A DNA stretch of 25,634 nucleotides from Chrysochromulina tobinii (Eukaryota > Haptophyta > Prymnesiales > Chrysochromulinaceae): positions 1 to 25,634 of the forward strand of contig JWZX01003362.1 in NCBI GenBank assembly GCA_001275005.1, written 5' to 3'. Shown in pieces: positions 4,512 to 25,634 of this stretch. The notes beneath the pieces were generated by a model. That model did not search any database. It was not told where the DNA came from and worked only from the letters and a program-made list of their open reading frames with translations. Position numbers and translations under genes: made by a program. How positions within the stretch are numbered: position 1 is the stretch's first letter; the number at the start of each line of letters is the position of its first letter.

Positions 4512-4533
4512 ACATGACCCATGCGGACCCAGT

Positions 4534-4829: not shown

Positions 4830-5310
4830 GATCGATTTCGATATAAAATCTCGATGCTATACGCACCGCCGCGGCCCGGTCACGCGTCGGGCGGTCGGGT
4901 GGTAACACGTTTATCTAAATACTCAAGCGCGAGCTTCGGAAGAGGATCCAGAGACGCGGAATTAAACCGGCACACCGGACAGTTTGGCTGGTTCAGCCCT
5001 GAGCGCGTCTCGGGCCGCGGCACGAGGTGGCACACACGCACACGCAATGCCACGGCACGTTTTGACCCGCCGGGGGCGAGCTCTGCGCACATTGTGCCAG
5101 CGGCGGATGATGCCGGTGCCTGAGTGCTGAGATCGAGCGGACCTCGCTCACCCCCGCCACGACCGCGCTCAACGTGGAGCAGGACCGGCCGCGGGTTCAA
5201 GGTTACGGCCCAAGGTGCATGGACCGACGCCACAACAGTAATCAATCTACACGGCACAAGCGTACACGAGAGCTGCATGCAGCATGCAAGCCCAATCAAA
5301 GTGCGCTCGC

Positions 5311-8961: not shown

Positions 8962-9246
8962 GCTGCGTCAACCGCTGTTTGGAGGGTGTCTGGACTGATT
9001 GGAAGCTAGCGCCCGCAGCACTCAGCAGGAGCCACAGCGCCAAGACAATTTTCGTGACATCCTGCAACCAAGCGGAAGTTATGTCCTGATGGCATTTTAA
9101 TTGGGTTTCGCCGTCAAGTTATAAGCAGCGAGTACCCATTCGTTACAAGCGTACAGCCGCGACGATGGGAGCGGCCACAATGAAAAGATTCGTTTCGCGC
9201 GAACGCAGGAAAACGTTACAAAACATCACACAAAATCAGCCAGACG
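8962..9246. promoter_or_regulatory. Divergent promoter region, myosin and EF-hand genes
   Basis: The two start codons are 285 bases apart and point away from each other, so both promoters should be here. An ATTGG (reverse of CCAAT) lies near 9099 and TTATAAG near 9119. These are weak motif matches only, and the bidirectional role is inferred from layout. Confidence 0.4.
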
Positions 9247-10542
9247 ATGGTCGTGCTCGCCTCAGTCGTCGCTCCTCAGTCGTCGCTCAAGGTCGGTAAA
9301 CCAGAGACCACAACCACGCTGCCCTCTGTGCCGATGCCGATGAGGGCAAGGATGCCAACCAAGTTTGCCTTTGGCGGTGACTACGGTGCCGGCGGCGGTA
9401 GCGCTGGTGGCGGTGACGAAGGTGGCATGTCTATCGTTCGACAAGAGATGCAGTCGCTCGTGTACAAGAATCAGGGACCCCGGAGCGGGCTCAGCGAGTG
9501 GGCAATGCCCATGAAAAAACCACGGAACTGGCGCAACCCTGGGCGCCGAGAAGAGCACCACTTTCGCGGTACATCGATTACGGTTAGGACTCCTCCACAC
9601 GCAGCGACTCGGGACGCACGCAACCCCGACGCACCGTACGTCATCTCACAAGTATTTCCACCGATAGCCCCGAGAACGGCTTCGCACAGCCATCAGCCGC
9701 GCAAGTCATCGGTCGAACCTGCCGAAGCCGCCGAGCCGGCCTACAAGAGCCAGCTGCGTGATGAAGAGCCAGTGACGGAGCATTCAGCCGCCTTCGACGC
9801 GGCGGAGGAAGTTGTGCCCGCTGCGCCCGCCGCCGCCCAAAAGAAGAGCAAGCCGTCCAGGTCAGTGTTTGACGACCAGGTCGCACACTACCATAAGCTG
9901 CTGCGCAGCAAGATGGCCACGCGCTTCTCGACGCTGCGGCGCGTCTTTCGCAAGATCGACGCGGATGCATCGGGCCAGTGCGACCGTGGCGAACTCAAGT
10001 ACATGCTCAACGCGATGTTCAACCTGAGGGTTCCGGACGCGGTCATGGAACGGATGATCGACCTTGCCGACCACGATGGCGATGGCAATATCAGGTTTGA
10101 TGAGTTCGCACGCGTCTTCACAGCCGACGACATCTTCAACATGAAAAACACGCTCTCGGCCGTCGACGTGGCTAAGTATGGGACGGCTGAGGTCGAAGAC
10201 GAGCGCGCGCCGCTCGACCCCCGCAGTCCGACCCACCAGGTGCGCCGGCACCACTCTCATTTCCCACCAGGCGAGTTCGTTGCCACCAACGACGCGGTCT
10301 TCCTCGCGCAAGAGGCGGCGCGCTTCATCCCACGCGTCCTCACTTCTTCGCACGGGCGCGGCTTCGACCACTCGTCGCCTCCTCGCACAACCTTCAAGCC
10401 GCCCAATTTACGAGATCGCGCCGCGAGCCACACGATGCTCGCGGCGGGCAGGTCGACCGGTTGCCGCGTGCCATTCACGCTCGAGTGGCCCCTTCACCTG
10501 GAGGATAACAAAGAGCACAAGGAGGCCTTCATGAAGGCTTGA
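9247..10542 (+). CDS. Two-EF-hand calcium-binding protein with long disordered arms
   Basis: The 431-residue protein has a paired EF-hand at about residues 225-290. The first loop is D238-E249, with D238, D240, S242, D246 and E249 in the liganding positions. The second is D275-E286 (DHDGDGNIRFDE), fully canonical. Both should bind calcium. The N-terminal 200 residues are Gly-, Pro- and Ala-rich with basic patches, and the C-terminal 130 are His/Arg/Pro-rich, with no other domain. The sequence just before the first hand (KMATRFSTLRRVFRKID) resembles EF-hand proteins common in flagellate algae, some of them axonemal; that link is only suggestive. The start is the only ATG near the frame's beginning. 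No signal peptide or membrane segment is visible. Confidence 0.85.
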   Translation: MVVLASVVAPQSSLKVGKPETTTTLPSVPMPMRARMPTKFAFGGDYGAGGGSAGGGDEGGMSIVRQEMQSLVYKNQGPRSGLSEWAMPMKKPRNWRNPGRREEHHFRGTSITVRTPPHAATRDARNPDAPYVISQVFPPIAPRTASHSHQPRKSSVEPAEAAEPAYKSQLRDEEPVTEHSAAFDAAEEVVPAAPAAAQKKSKPSRSVFDDQVAHYHKLLRSKMATRFSTLRRVFRKIDADASGQCDRGELKYMLNAMFNLRVPDAVMERMIDLADHDGDGNIRFDEFARVFTADDIFNMKNTLSAVDVAKYGTAEVEDERAPLDPRSPTHQVRRHHSHFPPGEFVATNDAVFLAQEAARFIPRVLTSSHGRGFDHSSPPRTTFKPPNLRDRAASHTMLAAGRSTGCRVPFTLEWPLHLEDNKEHKEAFMKA

Positions 10543-10999
10543 GGAATACATTGTAACCTCATAAGGGTTAGGGGAAATGTAACCTGCAGCCTTTGCCTGT
10601 TCGGCGCATGAGCTGCGCAATATTGCCATCGACGCCATCGACGAGAAGGTCCCTGAGGGGGCCACTGAGGAGCGCTGACTGAGCGCTGACACGTCGGGCT
10701 CTCGCGTCTCGGCGCGAAAGGAACAAAGGATGCCGCGGTGAAGGGGAGATCTCCGACAAGCAATGCTAATTGATCACTATAAACAATGAGTGTGGTGATC
10801 ATGGTTCGTTTTGGAGATTCTGTTGGCGACGCGCCGCCGCGCGCGAGACGCGAACGGTCGGGTCCCTCCCCTCCCAGAGAAGCGATTGTGTTCACGCACG
10901 ATTCAGCACATCACAAGTGAAAATCACATGTGCGTTGCTGTGATCAGTCATCAAAAGAGTTATCTTTGTCTTCACACCTCCAGTCCAGGCTTTACGTAA
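10543..10999. other. Intergenic spacer with an inverted repeat around TATAAAC
   Basis: This 457-base gap separates two same-strand genes. TGATCAC (10771-10777) and GTGATCA (10795-10801) are perfect inverted repeats flanking TATAAAC, and TGATCA recurs at 10941-10946. This could be part of the promoter of the gene starting at 11000. No coding potential is seen. Confidence 0.4.
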
Positions 11000-12130
11000 A
11001 TGGTGCTCATCAACGGAGCGGCACTCTCTCCAGTGGCGCACGACCTCAAGCGTAAGCAAGCGCTCGCGACCGGGCGCATAACCGACAACGCCACTCGGCT
11101 CACGGCGACGCTCGTCGACCAGTTCGACCTAAGCCGCACCATCTTCAAGACGCTGCCGCCCCGCTCTTTACCGGCACTCTTTGCACGCACTAAGATTGAC
11201 ATGCACTACACCTTTGATCCGAGGCTCGCCGCTGAGATAGAGAAGGCGTATTCGCGCGTGCCTAGGCCGGTAGCCGACGATTCGGCCATCCTCAAGTTCA
11301 TGCACGAGGAGTGCGACTTTTCCATCGAGCATGCTGACGGCTCGTTCCTTGACCACCTTCACTTTTGCCACGAGTACGCGGCACGGTACTACACCACCGC
11401 GTCCTCGTCACCGCGCGTGCTGCTCCTCCACTCCATCATGGGCGTGGGCACCAACTGCTTCCCGATGACGCTCGAGAAGGTGCCGATGCTCAAGTCACTC
11501 GTGAGCGAGAAGGACTTTGCGCAGCTTGAGGCCTTCCCGAGCATCCTCCGGCTACTTATCCATGGCTACTTGCTGAACGAGCTCGCCGCATGCGATGCCA
11601 CCAAGCTCGGGCGCCTGCGCTCCATCCGATTCTACAGTGCGTGCCCACGAACGCGCGCCGCGCTGCCAGCTCCTGATCGTTCCGACTCGCTCTCCCGGGC
11701 GCAACGCCATCCCTCCTCTTCACCCTTTTATGCAACGTGGTTCGCCTCGTCCGTGGTAGGGCTGTTGGACAACGGGCTACTGACACTCACCGCCGCGCAG
11801 CTCTTCGAGAACCTCAACTACCAGATGATCCACGCCATCGACTTTCTGCCGCCCGCTTCATGGAAGCGCACAAGTGGCACATACTTCTTCAACATCTTTG
11901 TGCAGCTGCAGTCGATCCTCGCCCGTGCCGGGCAGCTGCGCGCGCGCGTCGGGTACGACCCCGCTGAGCAGCAGCCACTCGTCGACGGCGCCATTCCGAA
12001 TACATGGCGCCACTACCTTATCGAGCTCCTGCCGACCACAATCGTTATCAACTTGGCCGCGAAAACCATCGCCAAGTATTCAGCCCAGGTGGGCCACTCG
12101 CTAGCATACACGCTTGAGTGGTCCGACTGA
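11000..12130 (+). CDS. Unrecognised protein, probable in-frame intron
   Basis: The frame encodes 376 residues if unspliced. I do not recognise the family, but the composition is that of a folded protein: a conserved-looking stretch HADGSFLDHLHFCHEY followed by VLLLHSIMGVGTNCFP (about residues 111-156), then a long helical region. Residues 213-253 (ACPRTRAAL onward) are suddenly Ser/Pro/Arg-rich. They coincide with a possible 123-base GT-AG intron (11637-11759) whose start GTGCGTGCCC resembles the two confident introns of this window. Removing it keeps the frame, gives Tyr-Arg-Leu-Leu-Asp at the junction and leaves 335 residues. No signal peptide or clear membrane segment is seen. The start is the ATG at 11000. 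That this is a real gene is likely; its function is unknown. Confidence 0.75.
   Translation: MVLINGAALSPVAHDLKRKQALATGRITDNATRLTATLVDQFDLSRTIFKTLPPRSLPALFARTKIDMHYTFDPRLAAEIEKAYSRVPRPVADDSAILKFMHEECDFSIEHADGSFLDHLHFCHEYAARYYTTASSSPRVLLLHSIMGVGTNCFPMTLEKVPMLKSLVSEKDFAQLEAFPSILRLLIHGYLLNELAACDATKLGRLRSIRFYSACPRTRAALPAPDRSDSLSRAQRHPSSSPFYATWFASSVVGLLDNGLLTLTAAQLFENLNYQMIHAIDFLPPASWKRTSGTYFFNIFVQLQSILARAGQLRARVGYDPAEQQPLVDGAIPNTWRHYLIELLPTTIVINLAAKTIAKYSAQVGHSLAYTLEWSD
11637..11759 (+). other. Candidate in-frame intron
   Basis: GTGCGTGCCC at the 5' end, a pyrimidine-rich run CCCTCCTCTTCACCC near 11710-11725 and a terminal AG at 11758-11759 fit an intron of 123 bases, a multiple of three. The residues it would encode look unlike the rest of the protein. 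cDNA is needed, because the frame stays open either way. Confidence 0.5.
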
Positions 12131-12449
12131 GCCGCCGAGGCGGTTGCCGCCGCCGACGAGTACATGCGTCTTCAGCGCTCAGCCAGCGACTCAGCAGGGG
12201 CCACAGTAGATCCTCAGAAGGAGATTTTCGCGAGGACTCCATTGTTTCTCTTGTGATTCGCTAGGTTGTTAAACATGAGACCGTGATTGTAACATGTGAA
12301 TGCCATGTGAATTGTTTACGTGACGATCATGGGATGAACTTATTAGTCATGAACTATGAAGTGCCGTGAATCGCCTTGCGGTCTCGGCTCGGCTCTCGCC
12401 GCAGGCCGCACGACCGCAGCGTTTACACGACGCAGGAACGCCGGCGTCG
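12131..12449. other. Intergenic spacer upstream of the carrier gene
   Basis: The 319-base gap lies between two same-strand genes. It becomes AT-richer after 12240 and holds a direct repeat CATGTGAAT at 12293-12301 and 12304-12312, which could be a binding-site pair. Two ATGs at 12349 and 12356 precede the carrier ATG in other frames. Confidence 0.35.
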
Positions 12450-13655
12450 ATGTTAGTACATGTTCTGGCGACGTCGCTCAGCATCGCGCCGTCGACGCTG
12501 CATCCAATTGTTGCGACGGGCCGCTCACATACACCCGTCTTGTGTGCTATCCAACGTGAGTCCGAGCTAAGCGAGGCAGCATGCCTCAGCGTGTGTTGGG
12601 CAACCCTGGGAACACTCGCAGTTGCTGCCACCGCCACACGATCATGTCTTGGTCCACCCTTAGCCGTTGGCCGCTCGATACTTGCCGGGGGTATTGCTGC
12701 AGCACTCGGGGAGGCGATGTTTTATCCTCTCGAGGTGGCTAAGATGCGGCTGCAGCAGACCGGTATGAATCGGCTCGGGTTGATGGGCGAGCTGAGAGCG
12801 ATACTTGTTGCCGAGAGCGGCCGCTCAATGCTGCTCACTTGGGCCTCCACGCCGGGTGTGGTCGCTGGCGTGCTCCGTGCCGTTGTCTATCATGGGCTTC
12901 GGCTTGGCCTCTTTCCGCCGATTCAGCATGCCCTCATCGCTCTGCTTGCCGGCGGTGGCACCGGTGGCGTTAGCCTGGGCGTGAAGATTCTCATCGGCGC
13001 AGTGTGCGGCGCCGTCGCTGCAGCCCTGACGACACCACTGGATCTCGTCAAGACGCGCCTTGCGGTACGCCCAGATGCATATCCCAACTCGATCGGGGCG
13101 CTTGTCGGCATAGCCAGAGACGGCGCCAGAGCCGCCACAAGCAGCGGTGCAACACGGGGTACCTCGTCCTCTGGTGGTACCTCGTCGACTGTCGGGACTC
13201 CATTCGCTGCTGCCAAGTGGGCGAGTGCATTGTGGCCTCGCGGCGCAATGGCCGCCACGATCGTCCGAGCGGCTCTTGGCTCCGGTGCTCAACTTGCCAG
13301 CTATGATCAGGCGAAACGCTCCCTTACCGCGTTACTCTCCAGTTGTCCGGGAGGCTCCGCGATGGCCATCACCCTGGCGACGGTGGTGTCGGCCGCCGCG
13401 TACGTGACGGCCTCCGCCCCGGCGGATCTCGTCAAGACGCGACTGATGATCCACAAACCAAACAACGGCAGTGCAGCAGGCGCTACCTTGTATGCTGGCC
13501 CACTCGACTGCCTCCGCCGCTCGATAGATGACGAGGGCCTGGCTGTGCTCTTCCGAGGCTGGGGAGCCTCATTCACGCGGCTTCTGCCCGTGCTGCTGCT
13601 CGTGATGCCAATCCTTGAACGACTACGTGCACTTTTCGGCGTTGGGGGCTTCTGA
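12450..13655 (+). CDS. Mitochondrial carrier family protein (SLC25 type)
   Basis: Three carrier repeats can be seen in 401 residues. Their signatures are PLEVAKMRL (93-101), PLDLVKTRL (196-204) and PADLVKTRL (324-332), each the Px[DE]xx[KR]x[KR] motif that closes the matrix gate. The third repeat starts with Ala-Pro-Ala-Asp and keeps the charged residues. Hydrophobic helices precede and follow each motif as expected for six transmembrane spans. The protein is about 100 residues longer than a typical carrier: the N-terminus before the first helix is about 70 residues (possibly targeting), and a Ser/Thr/Gly-rich insert (about 223-255) sits in the second matrix loop. The substrate cannot be told. 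The frame is open from a GTG at 12366, but 12450 is its first ATG. Inner mitochondrial membrane is the usual site; some algal members sit in plastids. Confidence 0.88.
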   Translation: MLVHVLATSLSIAPSTLHPIVATGRSHTPVLCAIQRESELSEAACLSVCWATLGTLAVAATATRSCLGPPLAVGRSILAGGIAAALGEAMFYPLEVAKMRLQQTGMNRLGLMGELRAILVAESGRSMLLTWASTPGVVAGVLRAVVYHGLRLGLFPPIQHALIALLAGGGTGGVSLGVKILIGAVCGAVAAALTTPLDLVKTRLAVRPDAYPNSIGALVGIARDGARAATSSGATRGTSSSGGTSSTVGTPFAAAKWASALWPRGAMAATIVRAALGSGAQLASYDQAKRSLTALLSSCPGGSAMAITLATVVSAAAYVTASAPADLVKTRLMIHKPNNGSAAGATLYAGPLDCLRRSIDDEGLAVLFRGWGASFTRLLPVLLLVMPILERLRALFGVGGF

Positions 13656-14168
13656 AAAAACCTGAGCTGGAGACTGCTTGGGACGATGCGACGTGGATCG
13701 TGGTATTTTTCGGTAATCGCGCTCGCCGGCCGGGGCGTCGTATCGTTGAAACAACACGTTACCGCGCGCTCTCGTTAGACTGGCCCGGAATGAGCAAACA
13801 GAAACAAACAGAAACCCACACACTGCTGTAGCAGACTCCTGCGGGCACGCCGAGCGATGCGCCGTTCCGGCCAAGCTCTCCAACTGCCCGTGCCCGAGGA
13901 GAGGCGCGCCGGACGCGGCGACCGGCGCGTGCCGTGATGACGGAAGGCACTCATCCGAGGACCAGGACGACTCTTTTTCCGGAGATGATTCCGGCGTTTC
14001 GCCGGAGCTGGTGCGAGATGCGCGCAATCCCGTGAAACCCGAACCCGGACTGGCGCGCGCCCACCGGATGTCCGGCGGGGGGTCGCCTGACTTTGCACAC
14101 CGCACCTGTTGCGGATGCGGTGCATGAGCCGTGCGTCTGAGAGCACAGTAGGTACCAAAAGCTTATGC
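13656..14168. other. Intergenic spacer between convergent genes, with a structured segment
   Basis: These 513 bases separate the stops of the carrier and lumenal-protein genes. At 13961-14012, ACCAG pairs with CTGGT around an inner hairpin, TCCGGCG-TTT-CGCCGGA at 13990-14006. It may belong to a 3' UTR. Minus-strand frames here lack domains and overlap the lumenal-protein stop, so I do not call them. Confidence 0.4.
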
Positions 14169-14849
14169 TCATGCACCCTTGTTGATAATATCCTTGTCGC
14201 TGACGCCATCACCAGCCTCGTACTCCTTCTCATTGAGCCTGTTCTCCTCAATGATCTGCGCCTTGGCCTGCTCGACCACCTCTTGAGGCATGTAGCCAAG
14301 GAAGCTATCGATCGACTTTGACACCGATTTAAGCGCGGCGAGCACAAATGTTGACTGCTCACGCGTCAGGTCGTTGGCGACGAGCTTGTCCGGGAAGTAC
14401 TCGAGAATCTGCGTGAGCCCTTCGACAGCGGTATTGCCATAAGAGAGCGCTTGCTGCTGCTGGCCAATCGGCGCGTACGCGGACGCGCGCACAAAGCGGT
14501 CGCGAAGGTCATAGTTGTCGACCATCATGTTGATCGCACGCTTGATGTTCAGCCGCTGAAGCTCTTTGTACTTGCCTGTTGATACGAGGCGCGTCTCCTG
14601 GCCGGTGGCCTCCTGCACTCGTAGGATAAGCACGACTTCGGGTTGTAACAGTTCGGGACTTTTGAACACCTTCGGCGAACCAGCCGCAACAGCGGCCAGC
14701 GGAGGCATGCTGCCCACGCACGCAGCTGCAACGGCGGTGACGGCCGCGGTAAGTGCATCGCGGCGGCTACAAGCAGACGGGCTCGTAGACGATGGGAGCT
14801 GCCAGCACGCCGCGCCCGCCAGCAATACAATTTGTAGAGTGTGCCGCAT
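14169..14849 (-). CDS. Putative thylakoid-lumen protein, conserved plastid family
   Basis: The 226-residue protein starts with a hydrophobic signal (MRHTLQIVLLAGAACW), then a Ser-rich transit-like stretch, then SRRDALTAAVTAVAAAC: a twin-arginine motif followed by a hydrophobic core, and an Ala-x-Ala type site near LAAVAAGS (about residue 57). This three-part leader is what a lumenal protein of a secondary (red-lineage) plastid would need, with Tat transport as the last step. The mature part (about 58-226) is helical, with KYKELQRLNIKRAINMMVD and a C-terminal EENRLNEKEY. It resembles a conserved plastid family I cannot name with certainty; a PsbQ-like helical bundle is possible but unproven. 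It is divergent from the insulysin gene 180 bases away. The plastid call is good; the function is unknown. Confidence 0.75.
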   Translation of the reverse strand: MRHTLQIVLLAGAACWQLPSSTSPSACSRRDALTAAVTAVAAACVGSMPPLAAVAAGSPKVFKSPELLQPEVVLILRVQEATGQETRLVSTGKYKELQRLNIKRAINMMVDNYDLRDRFVRASAYAPIGQQQQALSYGNTAVEGLTQILEYFPDKLVANDLTREQSTFVLAALKSVSKSIDSFLGYMPQEVVEQAKAQIIEENRLNEKEYEAGDGVSDKDIINKGA

Positions 14850-15029
14850 TTTGGATCTCCGATTCCGAGATCACAACGAGGCGCTGGGTTTTCAAACGCA
14901 CATCTCGGGTTCTGGTGAGTGTCGATCCTGTGATACATGGTTTGCGCGCTTGGAACGGCGCGCTATGATGAACGCGTCTCCTCGACATGCCAGCTGCTCG
15001 GGAGCTCGGCGTGCCATTTCGCCACGCGA
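14850..15029. promoter_or_regulatory. Short divergent promoter region
   Basis: Only 180 bases separate the ATG of the lumenal-protein gene (14849) from the preferred ATG of the insulysin gene (15030). If the in-frame ATG at 14937 is used instead, the gap is 87 bases. Shared regulation is inferred from distance alone. Confidence 0.35.
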
Positions 15030-18000
15030 ATGTCGGTGGACATATCGGCAGAAGGTTCCTCTGACGTCACGGTCGCCGCAACACCTGATGTCGTCGACCT
15101 CTCGGCCTTGATTGCCTTTTCGACAGAGGACATTGACAAGCCCGATCTGGATGATCGCAAGTACCGCTACCTTAAGCTCGCCAACAATCTGCAGCTCCTG
15201 CTGGTCTCCGACCCGGAATGCGACCACGCGGCCGCGTGCGCCGATGTCGCCGTTGGATCTGCGAGCGATCCCGAGGAACTTCCGGGTCTCGCGCACTTCC
15301 TTGAGCACATGCTATTCCTCGGTACTGCAAAGTACCCAGCCGAGAACGCGTACCAGAGCTTCCTCGAGCAGCATGGCGGATCGTCGAACGCCTTCACGCA
15401 ACACGAGAACACTACCTGTGCGCCCACTCGCGCACCTGCATGTGCACGCACATTCCTCTCTCCTGCGTGTTCGCCCTCATCTGAAACCTACTGGTATCCA
15501 TTTTGTCCGAACGCGCAGACTATTTCGACGTCCAGCACCCGTTCCTGCTCGGCGCACTCGACCGGTTTGCCCAATTTTTTCTGTGCCCGCTCTTCTCCGA
15601 GAGCGCCACCGAGCGCGAGATGAAGGCCGTTGACTCAGAGAATTCGAAGAACCTGCAGAGCGACGCGTGGAGGCTGCAGCAGCTGTTCAAGGGGGCGGCA
15701 GATCCGCGGCACCCGTGGTCACGCTTCAACGTGGGCTCCATCGAGACGCTCTCCGACAAGCTCGAGAGGTACGTGCGGCTCGAGCTCAGCACGGCGTCCG
15801 TGCCGGCAACCAGAGGCAGCGCCCAGCCGCAGCCTGGCGCGGAGGGGGGCGGCTCGGCCGCCAACGTGGCGACCGCGTCGGTGCACGCGTCGGTGCGCGC
15901 CAAGCACGTTCCCGCGCTCAAAGTGCGTCGCACGCTCATCGACTTCCACAGTCGCCACTACTCGGCCAACCTGATGACGGTCGCCATCCTTGGGCGCGAA
16001 TGCCTCGACACTCTCGCTCAGTGGGCGGTGCCCCTCTTCGCGACGGTGCCCGATCAGAAGCTGCCGCGGCCCAAGTTCGACGTGGAGCCATACCCTCTGA
16101 GCCGGCTGAACAACTACTATCGGATTGTGCCAGTCAAGAACTTCTCGTCGCTGACGGTGACGTGGGCGCTCCCGCCGATCACCGAGCAGGTCCACTCGAA
16201 GCCCTTCCGCTACGTCTCGCACCTGCTGGGACATGAGAGTGAGGGCTCGCTCCTCTCTCTCCTGAAGAACAAGGGGTGGGCAGACCAGCTGATGGCCGGC
16301 GAATCACGCTCGCATTCGGACTTCGCCTGCTTCGACGTGACCATCGAACTGACCGATGAGGCCGATGCTCACGTAGACGAGATTATCGGGCTAATCTTCG
16401 CTTACATACGCCTCATCGCCGCTGAGCCCGAGCCACAGCGATGGGTGTTCGACGAGATGCGAGACCTTGCGTCGGTCTCGTTCCGCTTTCGGGACGTTGT
16501 CGAGCCGTCGAGTCTGGTGATGGCCCTCGCCGCCTCGCTCCAGCTCCATCCGCCCAAGCTTGCGCACTCACACCCGTACCTCTACGACGAGTGGAGGCCC
16601 GACCTCATCAGCGACCTGCTCATGCTGATGACGCCGCAACGCGCGACGGTGAGCCACGTGTCGCGCGTGCACGAGAGCATCGCGACGAGCCGCGAGCGGT
16701 GGTACGGTACCATGTATCAACGCACACCCATCTCGGACGCGCTCCTCGCGCAATGGAGCGCGGTGCCGCTGCATCCGGAGCTCCATTTCCCCACACCCAA
16801 CCCATTCATCCCGACGGACTTTGCACTCGTGTGCGACTCTGAGGTGGGCAAGGCTGAGGAGGCCGCCGCCGCGCAAGCTGAAGCAGCGGCTACCGCGGCT
16901 GCAACGAGCGCGGCGCATACTGCTGGCAACGCCCCCAATGCAGCAGCGGTTGAACTCGACGTGTCGCGTGGTCTGCATCCGGGGGTCTGCTGCGATCGGT
17001 CGGGCACGGGCGTGCCGATCCTCGGGCTCCGATACCACCTGAAGGGGAAGGACTATGACCTGTGCCAGGCTGAGTACGACAAGCTCACTGACGCTGACAA
17101 GCAGCTGTACGAGGCGATCCCGCCGCCTCACATGCCGCCTCCGCCGCCGCCGTGTGCGCAGCTGCTCGAGCTGACGAAACCCAAGCCGGAGGATCGCCTG
17201 GGACTCTCGTTTGAGTCGTGGGCGTTGTATCCCTACCTCGGGCTCGTAGTCGACAAGGTACACAAGGGCTTCTTGATAGAGGCGTCGCAACTGCTTGCGC
17301 AGGGTGACGTGGTGCACGAAATCGACGGGCGTGCCGTCTCGCAGCCCAACGAGGGGGCGGCGGTGCTGCGCGTGGCTCACGGCACTATCCGGCTGAACGT
17401 CACACGCAAGGCAGACCTGCCCAAGGTCAAAGAGGCCGCTGCCGCCGCTGTCGCCGCCGCCAAGGCAGGCCCCACACCGCCACCCCCTTTGGTGGCCATC
17501 GCTGCTGCTAGCGATGGCAGTGGGGCGCCGTGCAAGGTCCCACGGTTGATTCGATCCGACGGGCTGGCACAGCTGTGGCACAAGACTGATCGCACCTTCC
17601 GGAGGCCAAAGACGTCGATCATGATGGACATCGCGTCGCCGCACTCGTACGTCTCACCCGAGGCTGCGTGCCTCACCCGCCTCTTTTTCCGCCTCCTGCA
17701 GGACGAGCTGACGGAGTTCGTGTACCCTGCCGAGTGTGCCGGGCTGCACTACTCGGTTTACAACTCGACCTCGGGCCTGCGACTCTCCGTGGGCGGGTAC
17801 AATCACAAGCTGCCCGCACTGCTCGAAAAGGTGCTTGGGCGGCTCGCCACGCCCACGCTCGACGCGAGCCGCTTCCAAGTGCAGAAGGACCTTCAGCTCA
17901 AGGAGTATAGCAACTTCTTCAAAGGGCAGCCGCACGCGCTCGCGCGCTACGCGGCCTCGCACCTGCTTGAGATGAGCCGATGGCACATGCTCGAGTATAT

Positions 18001-18958
18001 TGAGTACGTCGGCTCGGACGCTTGCAGCCACGCGAGCCTGGCCGCCTTCACGCCACGGCTGCTCGAGCGCATCCACATGAACGTGCTCTGCCACGGCAAC
18101 ACGAGTCAGGCCGAGGCCAAAGCGCTCGTCGAGCAGGCGGCCGAGGTGCTCAAGAGCGGTCCGCTGCGGACCTCGCAGCGCCCGATGCTGCGCCTGCTGC
18201 AGCTGCCCGCAGACGTCGAGGTGGTGCTGCGCCTCCACCCGAGTCTCTACAGCGATTCCGAGCGCTCGCTGCTCAACACGGCGGATACCAATTCGGCCGT
18301 TGAGTTCACGCTCCAAGCAGGTCTCGACAAGCGGCCCGACACGATCACGCTCGAGCTGCTCGTCCAGATCCTTGCGAACCCGTGCTACGAGCAGCTACGC
18401 ACCAAGGAGCAGCTCGGGTACATTGTCAACCTGGGCCTGCGCATCGACTTGGGCGTCACCGGGCTGCGTGTCATCGTACAGAGCGCCACGCACGACGCCG
18501 CCCACCTCGACGCGCGTATCGAGCTGTTCATGGCAGGTGTCCCCATGCTGCTCGATAAGTTGACGGCCGAGGAATTTGGCAACCACCGCTCGGCGCTGCT
18601 CACAGCCAAGCTCGAGCAGCCCAAGACCTTACGGCAGGAGAGCGGCATCTACTGGAACGAAATCGCACAGGGCACGTATGACTTTGAGCGCGACAGCAAG
18701 GACGCCGAGGTGCTGCGTACCCTCTCGAAGGACGAGGTCATCCAGTTTTGGGGACGCCACTTTGACGCGAGCACACCTGGCCGGCGCAAGCTCTCGGCGC
18801 AGTCCTTTGCGGCGCACCACGCACTGCCGTCCAAGCTCGCGGCTGGCGTGCAGCAGCGCCCGATCCACTACATCGACGGCCTCGAGGCGGTGCTCGAGTA
18901 CAAGCGCACGCTCGCGGCCTACCCGCCGCCACTGCGCTGCGACAAGGTGTGGAATTGA
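15030..18958 (+). CDS. M16 metallopeptidase (insulysin-like) with ZZ-like and PDZ-like insert
   Basis: Two exons, 15030-15417 and 15519-18958, encode 1275 residues. The splice is read from conserved sequence: the first exon ends in HGGSSNAFT...ENTT and the second resumes as YYFDV, as in insulysins. Zinc motif HFLEH is at 89-93 and the third ligand E170 lies in VDSE, so the N-terminal half should be active. Between the two halves (about 600-800) lies material absent from ordinary insulysins: an Ala-rich linker, a ZZ-like segment (about 614-672, with DYDLC) lacking most zinc cysteines, a polyproline run, a PDZ-like domain (about 686-762) and another Ala-rich linker. The C-terminal half (about 807-1275) has the family's [11 protein letters not shown]. 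Typical members have about 1000 residues. It would cut short peptides; the insert may recruit partners. An in-frame ATG at 14937 could add 31 residues. Confidence 0.92.
15418..15518 (+). other. Intron in the insulysin gene
   Basis: The 101-base intron starts GTGCGCCCAC and ends CGCGCAG. Removing it joins two frames (offset of two, as required) and restores the insulysin sequence Asn-Thr-Thr-Tyr-Tyr-Phe-Asp across the junction. GTGCGC at its start can pair with GCGCAC at 15430-15435. Confidence 0.93.
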
Positions 18959-19554
18959 GGAATTGAGGATGCGAGCCGGCATGGCTATATGACTATATGA
19001 GAAACGAGACGCGAAGACACACAGGCATGGTCGCACACGCTGCGTAGCGAGAGGGGGATTTCGGGGGGGGAGGGGGCCGGCCCCCAGCTCACACCAGCAC
19101 TGTATGAGCGCTACCGCACGCAATCCACACGGTAGTCGGTACCATCCGGACCCCGGGGAGACTATAGCATGAACCATTGGTGTTATTCACATTGGGACCG
19201 GACGCGGACGCCTCCCGGGAGGTTGCGAGGAGTGACCAGCTAATCCGTAAACCGAGAGCGCGTTCTTTACCGTTTGTGCGTCGGGGCTTTTAATGGTGTG
19301 GGCTACTTCCCAGGCGGCGTCCCGGGTCCGGTGTTTCGTGTTAAACTTAATTATCGCGTACTTGAACTTGTCGCATTCTTTAGTACATGGGTTGAAATGG
19401 GTCCGCGCCGCTCTCTTTTTTGGCTGTTTCTCAGGATTCAGCCTGCATGTGTCTCATTTCGAGAATCCTGATTTCTGTTCACAAACGTTTATATGTACGT
19501 GTTGTGTGAATTCATACTTTGTAATCGTATCAGTGTGATGGTTACCGCATCCGT
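18959..19554. other. Intergenic spacer with G-runs and a palindrome
   Basis: Nearly 600 bases follow the insulysin stop. G-runs at 19053-19057, 19063-19070 and 19072-19076 lead into the 14-base palindrome GGGGGCCGGCCCCC (19072-19085). The second half (19330-19550) is AT-richer and may be the promoter of the next gene. The small open frames at 19274-19538 show no domain. Confidence 0.45.
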
Positions 19555-20700
19555 ATGTACGCCGGTCCGGTGTCTTGGGTGCGAGTTATAAACATTGGCT
19601 GTGAACACGCCGCGCGTACTTTGCCGATCGGCATGGCGCTGGTGGGGCCTTCGTATACTCCCCTGCCGAGTACACTATCGGCTGAGCCACCGCCGGAGAT
19701 TGGCCTGCTGTCTTTGTTGGCAGTGGCGCCCAGTGGGAGTTCCCCGGCTGCCGCAAATTTGTTCATTCTTGTGCGGCTCAGCGCCATCGCCTTCGCTGTT
19801 TGGGCGATTGCTCGTTACATGCGCGGGAAGATGGCCCGAGCATTGACCTGGGGCATCGCTCGCAGCGTCAACGACCCACACGGCCATGCTCGCAGGCAGC
19901 TCGCAACATGGGAGACTGACGACCCCTCCCTCCACGAGATTCGCAACATACTGCGCAACATCACTGCCCGAGTACGACCACACAGCCTGAGCTGCTCGTC
20001 CGAGCCCGTGGATCCCGAGCCCGCGGATCCAGAGTTTGAGACTGCACGCAACATGCTCACGGAGAGCTTTGGGCGACGACGGCGAGCACCGCCAGCGCAC
20101 ACGGAGTCGACGCCGCCACGCGCTCCTCTCAGCATTCAGTTGCTCGGCGCGGTATGCCCGTGGTATCTGACGGACTGGTATCAGATGGCGAGCCGGCGAG
20201 ACAGCTCGCGACCTGACGGGGAATCATCCACCTCGACGCCGTCGGCGGCGCCTTCCACGCCACAGGTCAATTTGCTCGAGGGGGAGCGGCGCAAGTGGGC
20301 AGCCGCCGACGCCGCACGGCCGCAAGCCGACGTAGAGAAACCATCCATGCCGCCGCGTACGCCACCACCCGCCTTGCCGCCGCGCACGCAGGTGGACTGC
20401 AGCAAGAATCCCGGGCTGCCATTCTTCGAGCCTCCGGAGGAGCGCGGGTCGCCGAGCTTCCCACAGCGGCTCGAGGCACAGCAGGTCCTTGGGCCACGTG
20501 CCAAGCACGCGGGATTACCCAGTGCCGCGAGGCTGCCACCAGTGCGCACCAGCAGCGAGGCTGGCAGGCTGCCAGCAGCGAGGCTGCCACCACCCAGTCA
20601 GCTATCCAATCGGAATCCAAATCTCTCTCTAATTGTCGACCGAAATGGGACGCGGACACCTTTGCGAACCCCTCAAAAAGCGAAGGCCTTTGCCGAATAG
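19555..20700 (+). CDS. Unrecognised proline-rich protein with one possible membrane segment
   Basis: The 381-residue frame starts at an ATG; a second in-frame ATG at 19633 is possible. A hydrophobic stretch at about residues 66-88 (FILVRLSAIAFAVWAIARYM), with one internal Arg, could be a transmembrane helix. It is followed by a basic, helical region (about 89-160), a repeat-like EPVDPEPADPEFE and a short conserved-looking piece CPWYLTDWYQMA near 202. The C-terminal half is Pro/Ser/Arg-rich with PPRTPPPALPPRT (possible SH3- or profilin-binding) and three ARLPP-like repeats. I recognise no family. The low-complexity C-terminus weakens the call, but the frame is long and contains an ordered N-terminal part. 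Confidence 0.55.
   Translation: MYAGPVSWVRVINIGCEHAARTLPIGMALVGPSYTPLPSTLSAEPPPEIGLLSLLAVAPSGSSPAAANLFILVRLSAIAFAVWAIARYMRGKMARALTWGIARSVNDPHGHARRQLATWETDDPSLHEIRNILRNITARVRPHSLSCSSEPVDPEPADPEFETARNMLTESFGRRRRAPPAHTESTPPRAPLSIQLLGAVCPWYLTDWYQMASRRDSSRPDGESSTSTPSAAPSTPQVNLLEGERRKWAAADAARPQADVEKPSMPPRTPPPALPPRTQVDCSKNPGLPFFEPPEERGSPSFPQRLEAQQVLGPRAKHAGLPSAARLPPVRTSSEAGRLPAARLPPPSQLSNRNPNLSLIVDRNGTRTPLRTPQKAKAFAE
20527..20595. repeat. Short imperfect tandem repeat inside the proline-rich gene
   Basis: Copies of GAGGCTGCCACCA and GCAGCGAGGCTG recur three times in about 70 bases, encoding the repeated Ala-Arg-Leu-Pro-Pro motif. It is a local slippage-type repeat within coding sequence. Confidence 0.6.
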
Positions 20701-21056
20701 TGTTCGCGAGTGTTCCTGTGTCGCCCCGCGGGCGTGTTAGAGGGGCGTGTTTACTAGGATCTTACTATCATAGGCGTCGTGCCGTTCACACGATCACAGA
20801 GCTCGAATAAGCCCATAGGTTGAGGTTTTCACGTAATCGACCATCCATTACATGGTAAGCGAGCTTCTCTTGGCTTGATACTTGGGGATGCTACACCCCT
20901 TCGTCGCGAACAATTGCATCACGCCGGTTCGAGCAAAGGCGCCGTCCCGAGCTCCTGCCAGCTTGCTGTTGAGGCAAGGGTGCTCTCCCTTGCTCGCCCC
21001 GTCCCTCGCCTCGTCTCCCTCGCCCGCTAACCTTGGCGCGTGCGTTGCGCAGGACG
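20701..21056. other. Spacer with a possible 5' UTR intron end
   Basis: The 356-base gap ends with CGCTAAC (21025-21031) and then TTGCGCAG just before the ATG at 21057. That matches a branch-point-like string plus a 3' splice site, so the following gene may have a non-coding first exon in this gap. No donor can be chosen with confidence. Confidence 0.4.
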
Positions 21057-21749
21057 ATGGGCACGTCTGCCGGGTTCTTCGGCATCACCTACCAGGGTGC
21101 AACCAACGGCCTCGCCTCGGTGACGCTCTCCATCTTCAACTGCGACCATCCCGACGATGTCGCTTGGTGCAAGCATGTCTTCGATTACTCCACGAACAAT
21201 AGCGGTTTCCTCACCAAGGCGAAGGTGCCCGACTTCCTGAGGCTCTTCTACCGCAATCGCCCACAGGGTAACACCCTCTCGGGCACGTACCTATACTCCT
21301 ATCCGGAGAATGAAAAGGAGTTCATCGACGCCCTTTTTGGCAAGGACGGCCAGCTCACCTTCGCGACGCTGATTGAAGCGCTCAAGGAGGCGCAGGGGCG
21401 CTTTGCCGAGCCGGCGGCGCCACTCGAGTATGGCTCCGCCGCCGTGCTGCGCAACGACAAGACGAAGCATACGCGTTGCGTCCTGAACCCTCAGCAGCGC
21501 TTCCGCAAGCCGATAGCGACGTCGCAGGAGGTGGGCTGGGAGCTGTACAAGGAAGTGAAGCCGGAGTTGGTGGCCAGCTTCAATGATACCGGAGGCCCGG
21601 GCACGCCTTTCCGCCTGCGCACCTCGGCCACCACACAGTTTGCCGACGCGATCGAGAAGATAACGTGGGGTCGTTCCATCGGCGGCGAGTTCAGCGCGTA
21701 CGCGACGCGCAAGCTCGTGGCGTTTGGTGGCCAGGGCATGGGCGTCTAA
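21057..21749 (+). CDS. Small protein with degenerate EF-hand-like loops, possibly axonemal
   Basis: The 230-residue protein begins at the first in-frame ATG. Residues about 30-60 contain a helix-loop-helix with STNNSGFLTKAK, an EF-hand loop shape without acidic ligands, and a second half-loop with KDGQLTF near 97-103. The C-terminal half (RCVLNPQQRF, TSQEVGW, TQFADAIEK, then AYATRKLVAFGGQGMGV) resembles short repeats in ciliary microtubule-inner and tubulin-binding proteins, where TSQ-x-x-GW-like motifs are common. That resemblance is from memory and not tested. No signal or membrane segment is seen. It is certainly protein-like and probably conserved in flagellates; its exact family is unknown. 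Confidence 0.7.
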   Translation: MGTSAGFFGITYQGATNGLASVTLSIFNCDHPDDVAWCKHVFDYSTNNSGFLTKAKVPDFLRLFYRNRPQGNTLSGTYLYSYPENEKEFIDALFGKDGQLTFATLIEALKEAQGRFAEPAAPLEYGSAAVLRNDKTKHTRCVLNPQQRFRKPIATSQEVGWELYKEVKPELVASFNDTGGPGTPFRLRTSATTQFADAIEKITWGRSIGGEFSAYATRKLVAFGGQGMGV

Positions 21750-22089
21750 AGACGTAGTGCTGCGGTGCCCTTCATGCAGCCGTGCAGGGATAGCAACCAG
21801 CCCAGCGCGGTATCCCACGCGTAGAGGCGTTTCGTGTGCATGCCCATGCGAGATAACACGTAGGTGCGCACGCCGCAACGGCCAACGCCTGCTAGCCGGT
21901 CCCCGGGTGATTCAGCCTGCGGTGCCACGCGCGTTGTCCGCTTTTGGTTCGCTTTTGGTGAGGCGATTTTCTCCCTGTTCTTGACTGAATCGCTCTCAGG
22001 CGTTGCCGTTGGCGATTTTCGCGTATTATACAACCGGCCCTGCGTGTGTTGGCCGGTGTTGAAGAACACTGTACTGCGTACACAAAAGC
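21750..22089. other. Intergenic spacer between convergent genes
   Basis: These 340 bases separate two facing stop codons. GCTTTTGGTTCGCTTTTGG at 21940-21958 is a small tandem repeat. No RNA gene or coding frame is supported. Confidence 0.4.
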
Positions 22090-23256
22090 TTATTCCTCGG
22101 CCTCGCGGAGTCCCGAAACGAAAGTGGCGGAAATCGCGGAACGAACGGGTTCGAACCTGCTCCCGTGTTCTTCAGCAGGCTCGTTCGTGGGACCACCGCC
22201 CTGCTCCAGTGCAGTGGCTACGGGAGGCTCGTCGTCCATGGCTGGCGCCGTGACTGCCGGCTCGGCCACTGTCTGTTCGTCGCTTCGGCCGTCGATCGCC
22301 GTAGCTGAATCCGCCGGCGCCGGCGCTGAGGCCGAGTTGAACTCCATAGGCTGCCTACACTTGCGCTCGAGGCACGGCTTCTTGCGCACGCCTGCCGACA
22401 GGGCCATGGCAGGTGGGCCACACACCTATGTGAGTGTATGGGGGCTCAGGGGGTGGGGAGAGGCGGAGGGCGGCGCGGGGCAGGCGGCGGCAATCACGGC
22501 CCAGTTGCAGGGCCTTGTCCCTGAAATGGACCGTTAGGGCGGACAGTTAGCCTCCCGCCCCTGACGCGCGCGGCGACCATCGGCGGAGCGCGCACCACCG
22601 CCTCCAAACTTGGGCTTGTCCCGGCAGTTCAGGCACGTGCCGCAATCATCGCGACAGCACGCTTCACATTGGCCACAGGCCACCTGCCGACGCACGGAGC
22701 CCGAAGCGGGCGCCGGAGTTCGGCCCTCTCGATCGGCGGGTGGCAGTGCCAGAGCCTGCCCGCTGGGATTGCACGGGAAGGCTGCTCCATACGCCGCAGC
22801 GTCATCCTCCACCCGTTGCCGCTTGGGTGGCCGCTTGATGGCAGAGCCGCCATAGTGGAGTGTCATGTGCGCCTTGAGCGGCTCCTGGAATTGCTTGAAG
22901 CCGAGCGCATTGAGCGCCGTGGCGATGTCGGAGTAAGTTACGCTCGTGCGCCCCTCCTTAGCGACGCGCACACGCGCCTCGCTTACGACCAGGCTGACGA
23001 ACTCAGTCGTGCACCGCTGCACAACAGAGACGGATGGATCTGTGATAGCATCTTGCTCACCGCCCAACGCGCGCTTCATGATGTGCCGAATGGACGTGAC
23101 CGGGAGCAACGCTGGCTCGGGTACGATGGTCGACGCCGGCGGGGGCGTCGACTGCTCGTCTGGATGGGCCGCTTCGGCAGGGTCGGCCATCTTCGGCGCC
23201 GCACAGGCGGCGGCGCGCCTCATCGGCTTGAGCGCGGCTTGAGAGGCGACAAACAT
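22090..23256 (-). CDS. NF-YB-like histone fold + CXXC zinc finger protein
   Basis: Two exons (23256-22596 and 22391-22090) encode 320 residues. Residues 51-130 are a histone fold of the NF-YB/HAP3 type (LPVTSIRHIMKRAL through LGFKQFQEPLKAHM). A basic stretch KRPPKRQR (141-148) looks like a nuclear signal. Residues 189-232 form a CXXC zinc finger with all eight cysteines: C194, C197, C200, C205, C208, C211, C227 and C232, and KFGG at 216-219. The last two cysteines are in the second exon, so splicing is needed to finish the domain. CXXC fingers usually bind unmethylated CpG. The Pro/Ala/Glu-rich tail has no domain. A second possible start is the ATG at 23190. The gene lies 42 bases downstream of the YY1-like gene on the same strand and shares its histone-fold DNA. 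Confidence 0.87.
22392..22595 (-). other. Intron in the CXXC gene
   Basis: On the minus strand the 204-base intron starts GTGCGCGCTC at 22595 and ends TCGGCAG at 22392. Joining its flanks gives four Gly then Val-Arg-Lys-Lys-Pro-Cys, so the spacing from KFGG to the seventh cysteine is seven residues, as in CFP1-type CXXC fingers. Reading through would instead lose the last two cysteines. Confidence 0.88.
22836..23179. repeat. Histone-fold cassette, copy 1 of a 344-bp direct repeat
   Basis: This block repeats at 23805-24148 (offset 969) with a single difference: G at 22867 against A at 23836, a silent change in a His codon (CAC to CAT on the coding strand). It encodes the whole histone fold plus the preceding Pro-rich stretch. 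Confidence 0.98.
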
Positions 23257-23298
23257 AGACAAAGGCTGTGAACGGTCACACTTCAAAATACTCAGAAC

Positions 23299-24462
23299 TC
23301 ACCCCCATGATGGCCATGCCTGTCCTTGCTCGTATGCCCCTGCCGCGTCGACGCCAACAGTGTTGTTGAGGTGCGATTTGAGGTGCGTCTTCAGGTTGCT
23401 TTCCTGCGCGAACCGCTTATCGCACCCGGGGAACGAGCACACATGTGGTCGCTCGCCCGTGTGCGTGCGCATGTGCGAGCGAAGGTTGAAGTCGAGGGAG
23501 AAGCGCTTCCCGCAGCCCTCGAACGGGCACAGGTACGGGCGCTCGCCCGTGTGCGTGAGCATGTGCCGCTTGAGCTTTGACGAATCGAGGAAAAGCTTGC
23601 CACAATCCTGGCAAATCGTCTGTTTGTCGCCGTGCGTATGCATGTGCTTGCGCAGCGAAGCCGCATCTGCGAACACCTTGCCGCAGCCCTCGAGCCGGCA
23701 GAAATGCGTCTGGCCGCCGTCACCGAAGGAGTGGTCAACGGAGAAGGCGGGCGCCTCGTCAAAGCACTTGCGCACCAGCATCCCGCCACCGAGCGTCCTC
23801 TGCGTGATGGCAGAGCCGCCATAGTGGAGTGTCATATGCGCCTTGAGCGGCTCCTGGAATTGCTTGAAGCCGAGCGCATTGAGCGCCGTGGCGATGTCGG
23901 AGTAAGTTACGCTCGTGCGCCCCTCCTTAGCGACGCGCACACGCGCCTCGCTTACGACCAGGCTGACGAACTCAGTCGTGCACCGCTGCACAACAGAGAC
24001 GGATGGATCTGTGATAGCATCTTGCTCACCGCCCAACGCGCGCTTCATGATGTGCCGAATGGACGTGACCGGGAGCAACGCTGGCTCGGGTACGATGGTC
24101 GACGCCGGCGGGGGCGTCGACTGCTCGTCTGGATGGGCCGCTTCGGCACCCTTCTCCTGGCACATCAGCTGCGCGCCCTCCTCGTGGGCCTCGGCAGGCG
24201 CCGCCTCCTCGTGAGCAGCTTGCGACGGCGCGAAAGCCAGCCCTTCCGCGGGCAGCATCGTCTCGCCGGGCGCGGCAGTTGAACTGGCAGCCGACTTATC
24301 GTGCGATTCCTCTGACAGCGTGTCGAGGGCGCCTCCCTCGCAGGTTAGAATAGGATCGAGGCCCTTCTCGTCCGGGCGGGCGCGCTTGTATGGCGGTTCA
24401 GCCTCGCCACCGAAATGGGGCTGCCCGTAGACGGGCGCGAGAAGTCCCGCCTCGTTGTCCAT
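23299..24462 (-). CDS. NF-YB-like histone fold + four YY1-type C2H2 zinc fingers
   Basis: From the ATG at 24462 the protein has 387 residues. Residues 1-105 are acidic and disordered, with PPYKRARP as a basic patch. Residues 130-210 are the NF-YB-like histone fold, identical to that of the neighbouring CXXC gene. Residues 255-364 hold four C2H2 fingers with ligands C255/C260/H273/H277, C284/C287/H300/H304, C312/C317/H330/H334 and C342/C347/H360/H364. SSKLKRH, FEGCGKRFSLDFNLR and KRFAQESNLKTH match the YY1 finger pattern closely, so a YY1-like DNA site is expected. YY1 itself has no histone fold. The frame above the ATG starts at a GTG that reads AAG-GTGAGT, more like a splice donor than a start. 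The final TGA lies within GTGAGT, another donor-like string, so the 3' end may be spliced. Confidence 0.9.
   Translation of the reverse strand: MDNEAGLLAPVYGQPHFGGEAEPPYKRARPDEKGLDPILTCEGGALDTLSEESHDKSAASSTAAPGETMLPAEGLAFAPSQAAHEEAAPAEAHEEGAQLMCQEKGAEAAHPDEQSTPPPASTIVPEPALLPVTSIRHIMKRALGGEQDAITDPSVSVVQRCTTEFVSLVVSEARVRVAKEGRTSVTYSDIATALNALGFKQFQEPLKAHMTLHYGGSAITQRTLGGGMLVRKCFDEAPAFSVDHSFGDGGQTHFCRLEGCGKVFADAASLRKHMHTHGDKQTICQDCGKLFLDSSKLKRHMLTHTGERPYLCPFEGCGKRFSLDFNLRSHMRTHTGERPHVCSFPGCDKRFAQESNLKTHLKSHLNNTVGVDAAGAYEQGQAWPSWG
23805..24148. repeat. Histone-fold cassette, copy 2 of a 344-bp direct repeat
   Basis: Partner of 22836-23179, 343 of 344 bases identical. The identity stops abruptly inside coding sequence on both sides: at the second base after the Ala-Ile codons that end the histone fold, and just before the shared Ala-Glu-Ala-Ala-His stretch. 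Confidence 0.98.
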
Positions 24463-24623
24463 GATGTAGACCAGAGCCGCGCAGACTTCGCGCAGACTAT
24501 GAGGGGCAGTTTCGCAGCGAGGCTGCTGTTGAACCGCACTCACCTTGTTTTGAAGAAATACCTCCTTCTTCTACGCAACCAACTCGTGTCGAAAATTCGC
24601 TGCGAAATGATCTGCATAATCAG
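24463..24623. promoter_or_regulatory. Short divergent promoter region
   Basis: Only 161 bases separate the ATGs of the YY1-like gene (-) and the aminotransferase gene (+). TTTCGCAGCGA at 24509 and its reverse complement TCGCTGCGAAA near 24598 form an 11-bp inverted pair about 80 bases apart. An AAG-GTGAGT string on the minus strand at 24546-24538 suggests a 5' UTR intron of the YY1-like gene. Confidence 0.4.
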
Positions 24624-25634
24624 ATGCGGCGACGCTCGCTCGCTCCCGCAGCGCGACGCTTCTCGGGCCTTGTGGCGTTGCGCAAGGAGCACGGTCCTAT
24701 AGGAAACGTGCCACCAATAGCGTTAGAGCGAGCTGGCATCTATGTGAGGTGCGACGATAACGTCGAAGGTGTTTCTGTGCTGCTGGGCAACGCATGCTCC
24801 GAGATCTTTGCGGGGCCTGCGCTGGCCAAGGTGCTGCGCGCGGGTCACGCTTACGAAGCTCGCGTGCTAGCGGCTCTTGATGCCGGCACGGCCGCACAGC
24901 CGCTCGTGCAGCACACAGCCGCCGCCATTACAGACGCGTGGTGGCCGTTCCTCGAGAGCCTCACAGCGCACGTGCCACAGCGTGCACGCGCAGAAGCGGA
25001 CTGGTGCGTGAATCTACAAGTGGAGGGTGCATCCGCCGTGCACGCAGGCGTCGAAATGCTGTTGCAGCTCCAGGCGGCGCGAGGCCAGTCAGAGCGCGTG
25101 GGCGTCGCAGTGGCGGCCGCCTCTTACCATGGCCCAGCCACCACATCACTCGGCGTGCCATTCGCGCCTATGAGCGCGCTTACGTCGGCGACCAAGCCGC
25201 CGCAGCTCGTCTACCCCGCCCCGACGCCGTGGCGGCCGCTGGACAGCGCCGCGGACGTCCAGCTTCTGCATGGCGAGTGGCGTTCCTTCTTCGCTGCGCA
25301 TGGGCCGCGGCTGGGCGTCGTGGTGCTGGAGCCGCAGTGGGGCTCGTCTTGTGCTGGCGCGTGCTGGCCGCCGGAGCTGCTACGCAAGTTCATCGGCATG
25401 GCGCACGATCATGGCGCGCTCGTCCTGTGCGATGAGGTCATGTGCGGTTTGGGACGGCACGCGCTGCCACGCGGTGGCGTGGCAGCGCACCCCATGGATG
25501 GCGCTCGAGACGGCGCCGCACCTCTGAGCGCCGCCGCAGCTGGGGGCGTGTGCCCTCGCGCAGTCTCTCGGGCAATAGCATACACACCAGCAGCTTTGTG
25601 AGGAGCACCTCACCCGCCGCCGCTGCGGCCGCTG
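24624..25634 (+). CDS. Class III (PLP-dependent) aminotransferase, 5' part
   Basis: The frame opens at an ATG and reads 325 residues to a stop at 25601, but family similarity ends near residue 279, so the true gene very likely continues past the window. Residues 1-25 are Arg/Ala-rich and look like a mitochondrial presequence. Family features follow: EGASAVHAGVEMLL (the substrate-side Glu-Gly-Ala segment), AAASYHGPATTSLG, VVLEPQWGS and LVLCDEVMCGLGRH, whose Asp contacts the pyridine nitrogen of PLP. The Schiff-base lysine lies further on and is not in this frame. After GLGRH the reading becomes Ala/Gly/Pro-rich and unlike the family, which suggests an intron starting at about 25461 (GCGCTGCCAC, a GC-type donor). 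Class III enzymes transfer amino groups from omega-amino acids or ornithine; the substrate here is not clear. Confidence 0.8.
25461..25488. repeat. Perfect 12-bp inverted repeat at the break in aminotransferase similarity
   Basis: GCGCTGCCACGC (25461-25472) and GCGTGGCAGCGC (25477-25488) are exact reverse complements around a 4-base loop. The left arm starts exactly on the codon boundary after Gly-Arg-His, where the aminotransferase-like reading stops. Confidence 0.85.

Follow-up and report, generated by a model that had tools for sequence, protein, structure and literature searches.

A near-identical NF-YB-type histone fold in two adjacent mosaic genes of Chrysochromulina tobinii is probably kept common by gene conversion

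Contig JWZX01003362.1 of the haptophyte Chrysochromulina tobinii (assembly GCA_001275005.1, positions 1 to 25,634, forward strand) carries two neighbouring minus-strand genes, here called A and B, that contain almost exactly the same histone fold, joined in A to YY1-type zinc fingers and in B to a CXXC finger. The genome gave 55 PF00504 matches, as would be expected of a photosynthetic alga. The whole 25,634-nucleotide stretch that was analysed is referred to as the window. In the account that we regard as probable, A and B are mosaic regulators, A formed beside B, the two folds have been homogenised by gene conversion, and the encoded proteins would share an NF-YB-type surface while addressing different DNA targets.

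The shared cassette is a direct repeat on the minus strand, with copy A at 23805-24148 and copy B at 22836-23179, the starts being 969 bp apart. Its 344 positions align without a gap and differ at a single one, where the coding strand has T at 23836 in copy A and C at 22867 in copy B; the codons are CAT and CAC, both specifying His, so that the difference is synonymous. A sequence-only reading of this DNA had described just such a block with one silent difference, and the alignment confirmed it. The repeat is far beyond chance, since its 312-bp exact stretch, the longest exact repeat in the window, compares with 13-18 bp in simulated windows of the same dinucleotide make-up (n = 20). One of the three coding-strand frames across the cassette is stop-free, and it is the coding frame. 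The sequence-only reading had also proposed a search for further copies; a DNA search of the assembly (53 Mb, 2253 contigs) found two, both in the window, and the next best match in a protein search of the same assembly with the cassette was only about 30% identical.

Pfam matched PF00808 in both genes (23881-24078 in copy A and 22912-23109 in copy B), together with C2H2 fingers in A and zf-CXXC in B. When PDB chains were searched with the cassette as a single sequence, 12 of the 13 matches were NF-YB, OsGhd8 or HapC, the other being 'Oocyst rupture protein 1'. A profile made from seven relatives gave 18 matches at E up to 1: NF-YB/HapC/OsGhd8 chains scored 56.2-63.9 bits, Oocyst rupture protein 1 50.4, NC2 beta 31.7, TATA-binding protein-associated phosphoprotein 24.4, CHRAC-14 24.1 and Pol epsilon D 16.5 and 15.3 bits, and no chain named NF-YC was among the 18. 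In this profile search the cassette is therefore closer to NF-YB than to the folds of NC2 beta, CHRAC/POLE3 type or NF-YC, which bears out the NF-YB-like fold first recognized in the shared block. NF-YB, a subunit of the CCAAT-binding NF-Y trimer, provides its closest solved relatives by sequence, the match extending over fold residues ~7-89. It differs in that the fold is here fused to DNA-binding fingers, while a canonical-looking NF-YB-like gene exists separately at G000:C1354 and G000:C1759. The fold at these loci resembles canonical NF-YB by eye, scores 66-67 bits with PF00808 compared with 39.9 for the cassette, and is ~30% identical to the latter. Because the PDB matches are of NF-YB type and a separate canonical-looking NF-YB is present, the cassette is, by sequence, a divergent fold of NF-YB type that is probably distinct from the NF-YB orthologue of this genome. 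C1354 and C1759 are two near-identical 246-aa frames on different contigs, perhaps haplotypes or a duplication.

NF-YB is described as dimerising with NF-YC and recruiting NF-YA to CCAAT (PMC4827209). In the C. tobinii genome, five NF-YA domains exceeded the cut-off, and NF-YC-like folds were recognized by eye at L036, L038, L040 and L045; contigs C2234, C1317, C1892 and C2113 encode NF-YC-like proteins. A further locus, L081:866-2668 (G000:C1860, about 33365-35167), holds one 600-aa frame in which an NF-YA domain and a histone fold of NF-YB type both score above the Pfam cut-off; with an NF-YC-like fold just upstream, the locus is a possible single-chain NF-Y.

Gene A (23299-24462) is a single open frame starting at ATG 24462, and its 387-aa product would be a chimeric regulator made of an N-terminal region, the NF-YB-like histone fold and YY1-type fingers. 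A DNA search of the assembly with 24640-21950 returned the segment itself, many weaker finger matches and four long related segments. The N-terminal segment of A (24145-24462) is 87% identical to C1829:39061-39399, within a 573-aa open frame whose match to A begins at its ATG, and this module was found in the genome only at C1829 and in A. The finger segment (23358-23807) is 90% identical to C1625:11154-11612, where an uninterrupted 288-aa YY1-like frame holds the match, and 85% identical to C1070 over 23348-23761. These relatives stop at the edges of the cassette, the C1829 homology ending at 24145 and the C1625 homology beginning at 23807. Gene A is three DNA segments shared with three loci (the N-terminus of C1829, the fold of B and the fingers of C1625), joined in open frames. 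At neither junction is the frame interrupted, whether in A, in its C1829 and C1625 relatives or in B, and each junction shows a short overlap, TGCC between C1829 and B and TCA between B and C1625; the chance probability is ~0.02 for an overlap of at least 4 bp and ~0.06 for one of at least 3 bp. Exon shuffling would leave breakpoints within introns of the source genes, and none was found for gene A. It had been proposed that the parts outside the block are unrelated; A and B do differ there, but the block proved to be only part of the mosaic, the N-terminus and fingers of A being shared with other genes.

The fingers of A comprise four C-C-H-H units at residues 255-364, as in the YY1 family, and YY1-named proteins among the 120 matches listed show 57-66% identity over 28-33% of the gene, in agreement with the YY1-type assignment already made for one of the genes. 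Gene A departs from that family by carrying a histone fold, PF00808 having no match in the C1625 relative. At C1070 (L048:2-2590), one open frame combines SET, a borderline Myb-like domain, a partial CXXC (below the cut-off in one profile scan and above it in another) and YY1-type fingers; P0061, a database protein, has SET with YY1-type fingers, and P0046 has a CXXC-like fragment, seen by eye, with fingers. Their domain make-up suggests that the YY1-type finger block has been fused to several chromatin modules in these algae. On its other side, A is divergent from a plus-strand frame at 24624-25601, aminotransferase-like by eye, with 161 bp (24463-24623) between the start codons.

Gene B most likely starts at ATG 23190, since its relatives P0050 and P0024 share residues from MA(D/E)PAEAA onward and differ further upstream. 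The unspliced frame ends at 22534, where the CXXC finger is incomplete. We infer a 204-bp GT-AG intron within the finger (22392-22595), because its removal completes the domain and the same layout, with 263 bp, is present in the C733 relative: the zf-CXXC match rises from 36.9 bits (profile positions 3-40 of 48) to 42.4 bits (3-48 of 48; cut-off 26.5), a full domain being obtained only after this splice. Exon 1 (22596-23190) would then encode the histone fold, a basic tail KRPPKRQR and the first part of the finger, exon 2 (22090-22391) would encode its end and the C-terminal tail, and the spliced protein would have 298 aa. Thus, the CXXC finger attributed to this gene stands, but the sequence-only reading missed the intron and the second exon that completes the finger. 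The CXXC segment (22344-22697) is common to B and C733:18337-18749 (78% with gaps), and the match runs from 14 bp inside intron 1 of that gene, through intron 2, to just past the CXXC domain. The 5′ breakpoint of this piece is therefore in an intron of C733 and the 3′ one in an exon, so that the earlier preference for joining at the DNA level over exon shuffling holds for gene A, whose junctions are in open frames, and fits the CXXC piece of B less well.

Synonymous divergence inside and outside the cassette, a comparison that had been suggested as a check, was estimated by the method of Nei and Gojobori, the outside values coming from comparison with other loci. Copies A and B of the cassette differ by a dS of 0.012 (114 codons). 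The corresponding values were 0.083 (dN 0.076; 104 codons) for the N-terminal segment of A and C1829, 0.22 (dN 0.10; 166 codons including a loosely aligned tail) for its finger segment and C1625, 0.28 (153 codons) for the finger segment and C1070, and 0.058, over 28 codons only, for the CXXC exon of B and C733. The contrast thus holds, 0.012 inside compared with 0.083 and 0.22 outside. Sharing of segments of the A/B kind was not seen in a control search with window positions 1950-21900, in which 39 of 232 candidates were scored. The query took in 19,951 of the remaining 22,943 bases of the window, those at 1-1949 and 24641-25634 lying outside it. The 44 rows of this search comprised 17 in 6817-8552, read as myosin paralogues (68-88%), 26 from one short repeat and one from another. 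The former repeat is a 68-bp interspersed element at 19538-19605, of which other contigs carry near-identical copies.

Three protein searches returned 1651 (120 listed), 12 and 20 matches, the third having scored 8000 candidates; the gene A queries began two residues before the ATG, and the gene B queries were the unspliced frame preceded by six residues. The P-numbered proteins are clusters at 90% identity, whose member sequences need not be independent. Seven database proteins among the matches listed carry the cassette. The arrangement of A is found in P0001, P0002 and P0003 (28, 5 and 22 member sequences), that of B in P0050 and P0024 (35 and 13), and a third arrangement, in which an A-like N-terminus and the fold are followed by CXXC, in P0004 and P0005 (11 and 2); A and B were seen side by side only in the window. 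A further 13 of the 20 matches of the third search are distant relatives without this cassette. The DNA of relatives was also sought among viral contigs, where none was found.

Twelve positions vary among the nine cassettes (seven from the database and two from the window), as counted after removal of a two-residue insertion in P0003. At seven of them (5, 6, 7, 9, 12, 18 and 114), P0003, P0024 and P0005, which have the A, B and third arrangements, respectively, share one state and the remaining six cassettes the other, regardless of gene. The PS that all four A cassettes have at positions 48-49 is also present in window B, whereas P0050, P0024, P0004 and P0005 have ET; L38 is common to window B, window A and P0001; positions 50 and 86 each vary in one protein. 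In a tree of 18 rows, 13 of them different, P0003, P0024 and P0005 were joined with a support of 95/96; nine of the 13 distant relatives were included, and P0122, P0130, P0132 and P0134 were left out. P0005 is identical to P0003 over 115/115 N-terminal residues and to P0024 over 114/114 cassette residues. At the protein level, and with an assignment to lineages that is partly circular, the copies are thus more alike within than between lineages, over a limited tract. Because both arrangements occur in two database lineages and yet 7 of the 12 variable cassette positions follow the lineage and not the gene, these protein comparisons favour repeated or ongoing gene conversion over a recent duplication.

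Several observations weigh against this account. The evidence for conversion from the relatives is at the protein level only, and a label-shuffle test of the tree showed no clustering beyond that of the shuffles, which leaves the 95/96 branch as its only evidence. P0003 and P0024 are placed in a single lineage because of the cassette that they share and because of P0005, a possible assembly chimera, and the two-residue insertion in the cassette of P0003 (HYGYGG) is absent from P0024, homogenisation being incomplete there. PS at 48-49 is also present in the distant relatives P0121-P0123, so that window B could have retained it instead of receiving it by conversion; this is countered by P0050, the nearest B relative of window B, which is equal to it at 99/100 aligned residues after the cassette, yet has M38 and ET. 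The identity of window B to window A could also be an assembly consensus error. As to the joining, overlaps as short as 3-4 bp say little about the mechanism. The protein record P0127 is consistent with removal of the C733-type intron 1 but continues into intron 2, so that the use of the latter intron in B is supported by the domain and not by a transcript. Finally, the N-terminus of P0004 is of C1829 type at 107/111 residues, so that this protein is not simply the N-terminus of A placed on B.

P0004 and P0005 could have arisen as deletion alleles when the direct copies exchanged, or they could be isoforms or assembly chimeras. Because of its C1829-type N-terminus, P0004 would need a further exchange; either the exchange reached C1829 too or the record is a database chimera. 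We considered the possibility that the shared fold is a recombination hub, at which exchange between direct copies in natural populations creates and dissolves, time and again, no fewer than three regulators (N-fold-YY1 fingers, fold-CXXC and N-fold-CXXC), conversion keeping the module common. This we hold to be unlikely; if true, it would mean that a single module for partner binding is switched back and forth between two DNA readers. P0024 also has, after the sequence of the second exon of gene B, one finger of YY1 type that the window does not have (20.2 bits, the Pfam cut-off being 25.2), and by eye the stretch of P0005 matching this finger seems to be read in another frame.

A single recent duplication, in which the cassette was copied between the genes shortly before this strain arose and no conversion took place, would account simply for one silent difference in 114 codons and for the finding of only two copies in the assembly. 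Yet, both arrangements, with the same junctions, are present in a lineage whose A has diverged, P0003 differing from window A at 16/103 aligned N-terminal and 21/156 aligned C-terminal residues, which indicates that the arrangements predate the near-identity; moreover, parallel changes would be required to explain the seven variable sites that A and B have in common within a lineage. We therefore consider this explanation improbable, and of the two alternatives offered by the sequence-only reading, recent duplication or ongoing conversion, only the latter is favoured.

We also considered that one cassette sequence had been used at both loci, or that A and B had been falsely joined, in a draft or metagenome-derived assembly. 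This would be in line with the 2253 contigs, with the lack in window B of the ET carried by the other B cassettes, and with the presence of the N-fold-CXXC proteins P0004 and P0005 on short contigs (1072 and 1635 bp) that resemble paths through a shared repeat. However, the arrangements occur in other assemblies (A in P0001-P0003, 55 members; B in P0050 and P0024, 48, with the same caveat on independence), and the contig crosses the 312-bp exact repeat and keeps the difference near its end, so that an artefact of this kind, too, has little probability. Still more remote is one gene in which alternative splicing joins the A N-terminus to either finger end, with P0004 and P0005 as isoforms: their A-like N-termini with a B cassette and CXXC end, and the inferred intron of gene B, would fit, but a stop separates the open frames of A and B, and in the window DNA no AG directly precedes the cassette of B, while splicing between equivalent cassette points that keeps the cassette whole would need AG/GT or AG/GC before the PS/ET codons at 140, such sites being found only downstream of these, at 201 and 306.

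Under the favoured account of mosaic formation followed by conversion, B would keep the older 3′ side of the fold and that of A would be derived, since a basic, KR-rich tail after the fold, like KRPPKRQR in B, is seen by eye in 9 of the 13 distant relatives (P0121-P0126 and P0128-P0130). The Pfam matches listed for these 13 proteins, eight of which were scanned again, included neither CXXC nor C2H2; one of them, P0133, has by eye a C2H2-like string after the fold and may be an independent fold-finger fusion. B would then have acquired a CXXC piece related to C733, and A would have arisen beside B by illegitimate joining or template switching at the 3-4 bp overlaps. The two folds would later have been homogenised by gene conversion, the latest tract having presumably run from A to B in the lineage of the window. 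YY1-type fingers target a YY1-type element and the CXXC finger targets unmethylated CpG. As predicted from their domains, both proteins would use the same NF-YB-type surface to bind partners of NF-YC type, A docking on the YY1-type element and B on unmethylated CpG, so that one pool of partners would be split between two sets of targets.

Fusion and domain-limited conversion are known processes. Gene conversion is reported to act differently on separate domains of one family in the zebrafish NLR-B30.2 genes, where, as here, homogenisation affects a portion of each gene and the rest diverges, and fusion and conversion together shape the family; that family comprises nearly 400 immune genes, in contrast with the two adjacent regulators with unrelated unshared parts described here (PMC4852459). 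Domain gain through gene fusion after duplication has likewise been described as yielding new domain combinations from duplicated coding DNA (PMC2926785); the present case differs in that the related loci are on other contigs and the junctions of A, with their short overlaps, fall within open frames. A survey of microalgal factors mentions NF-YB/NF-YC acting with other partners (PMC4827209), and in Chlamydomonas an NF-YB/NF-YC pair is described as working with the DNA-binding protein CONSTANS (PMC6736836). The pairing predicted here resembles this algal complex, but CONSTANS is a separate subunit, whereas the DNA reader is here fused to the NF-YB-like fold. Fusions of a histone fold to YY1 fingers or to CXXC were not found in a limited search of titles and abstract openings of the open-licence literature.

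Chimeric genes are expected to diverge after their formation. Here, the chimera lies next to the gene that apparently supplied its central portion and appears to exchange that portion with it even now, the dimerisation surface seeming to evolve in concert and the DNA-reading ends not. With an NF-YB-type fold joined in A to YY1-type fingers and in B to CXXC, an NF-YC-type partner would be able to reach two sets of targets, and the pair of genes may thus offer a testable case of a regulatory network that gains targets without a new partner surface.

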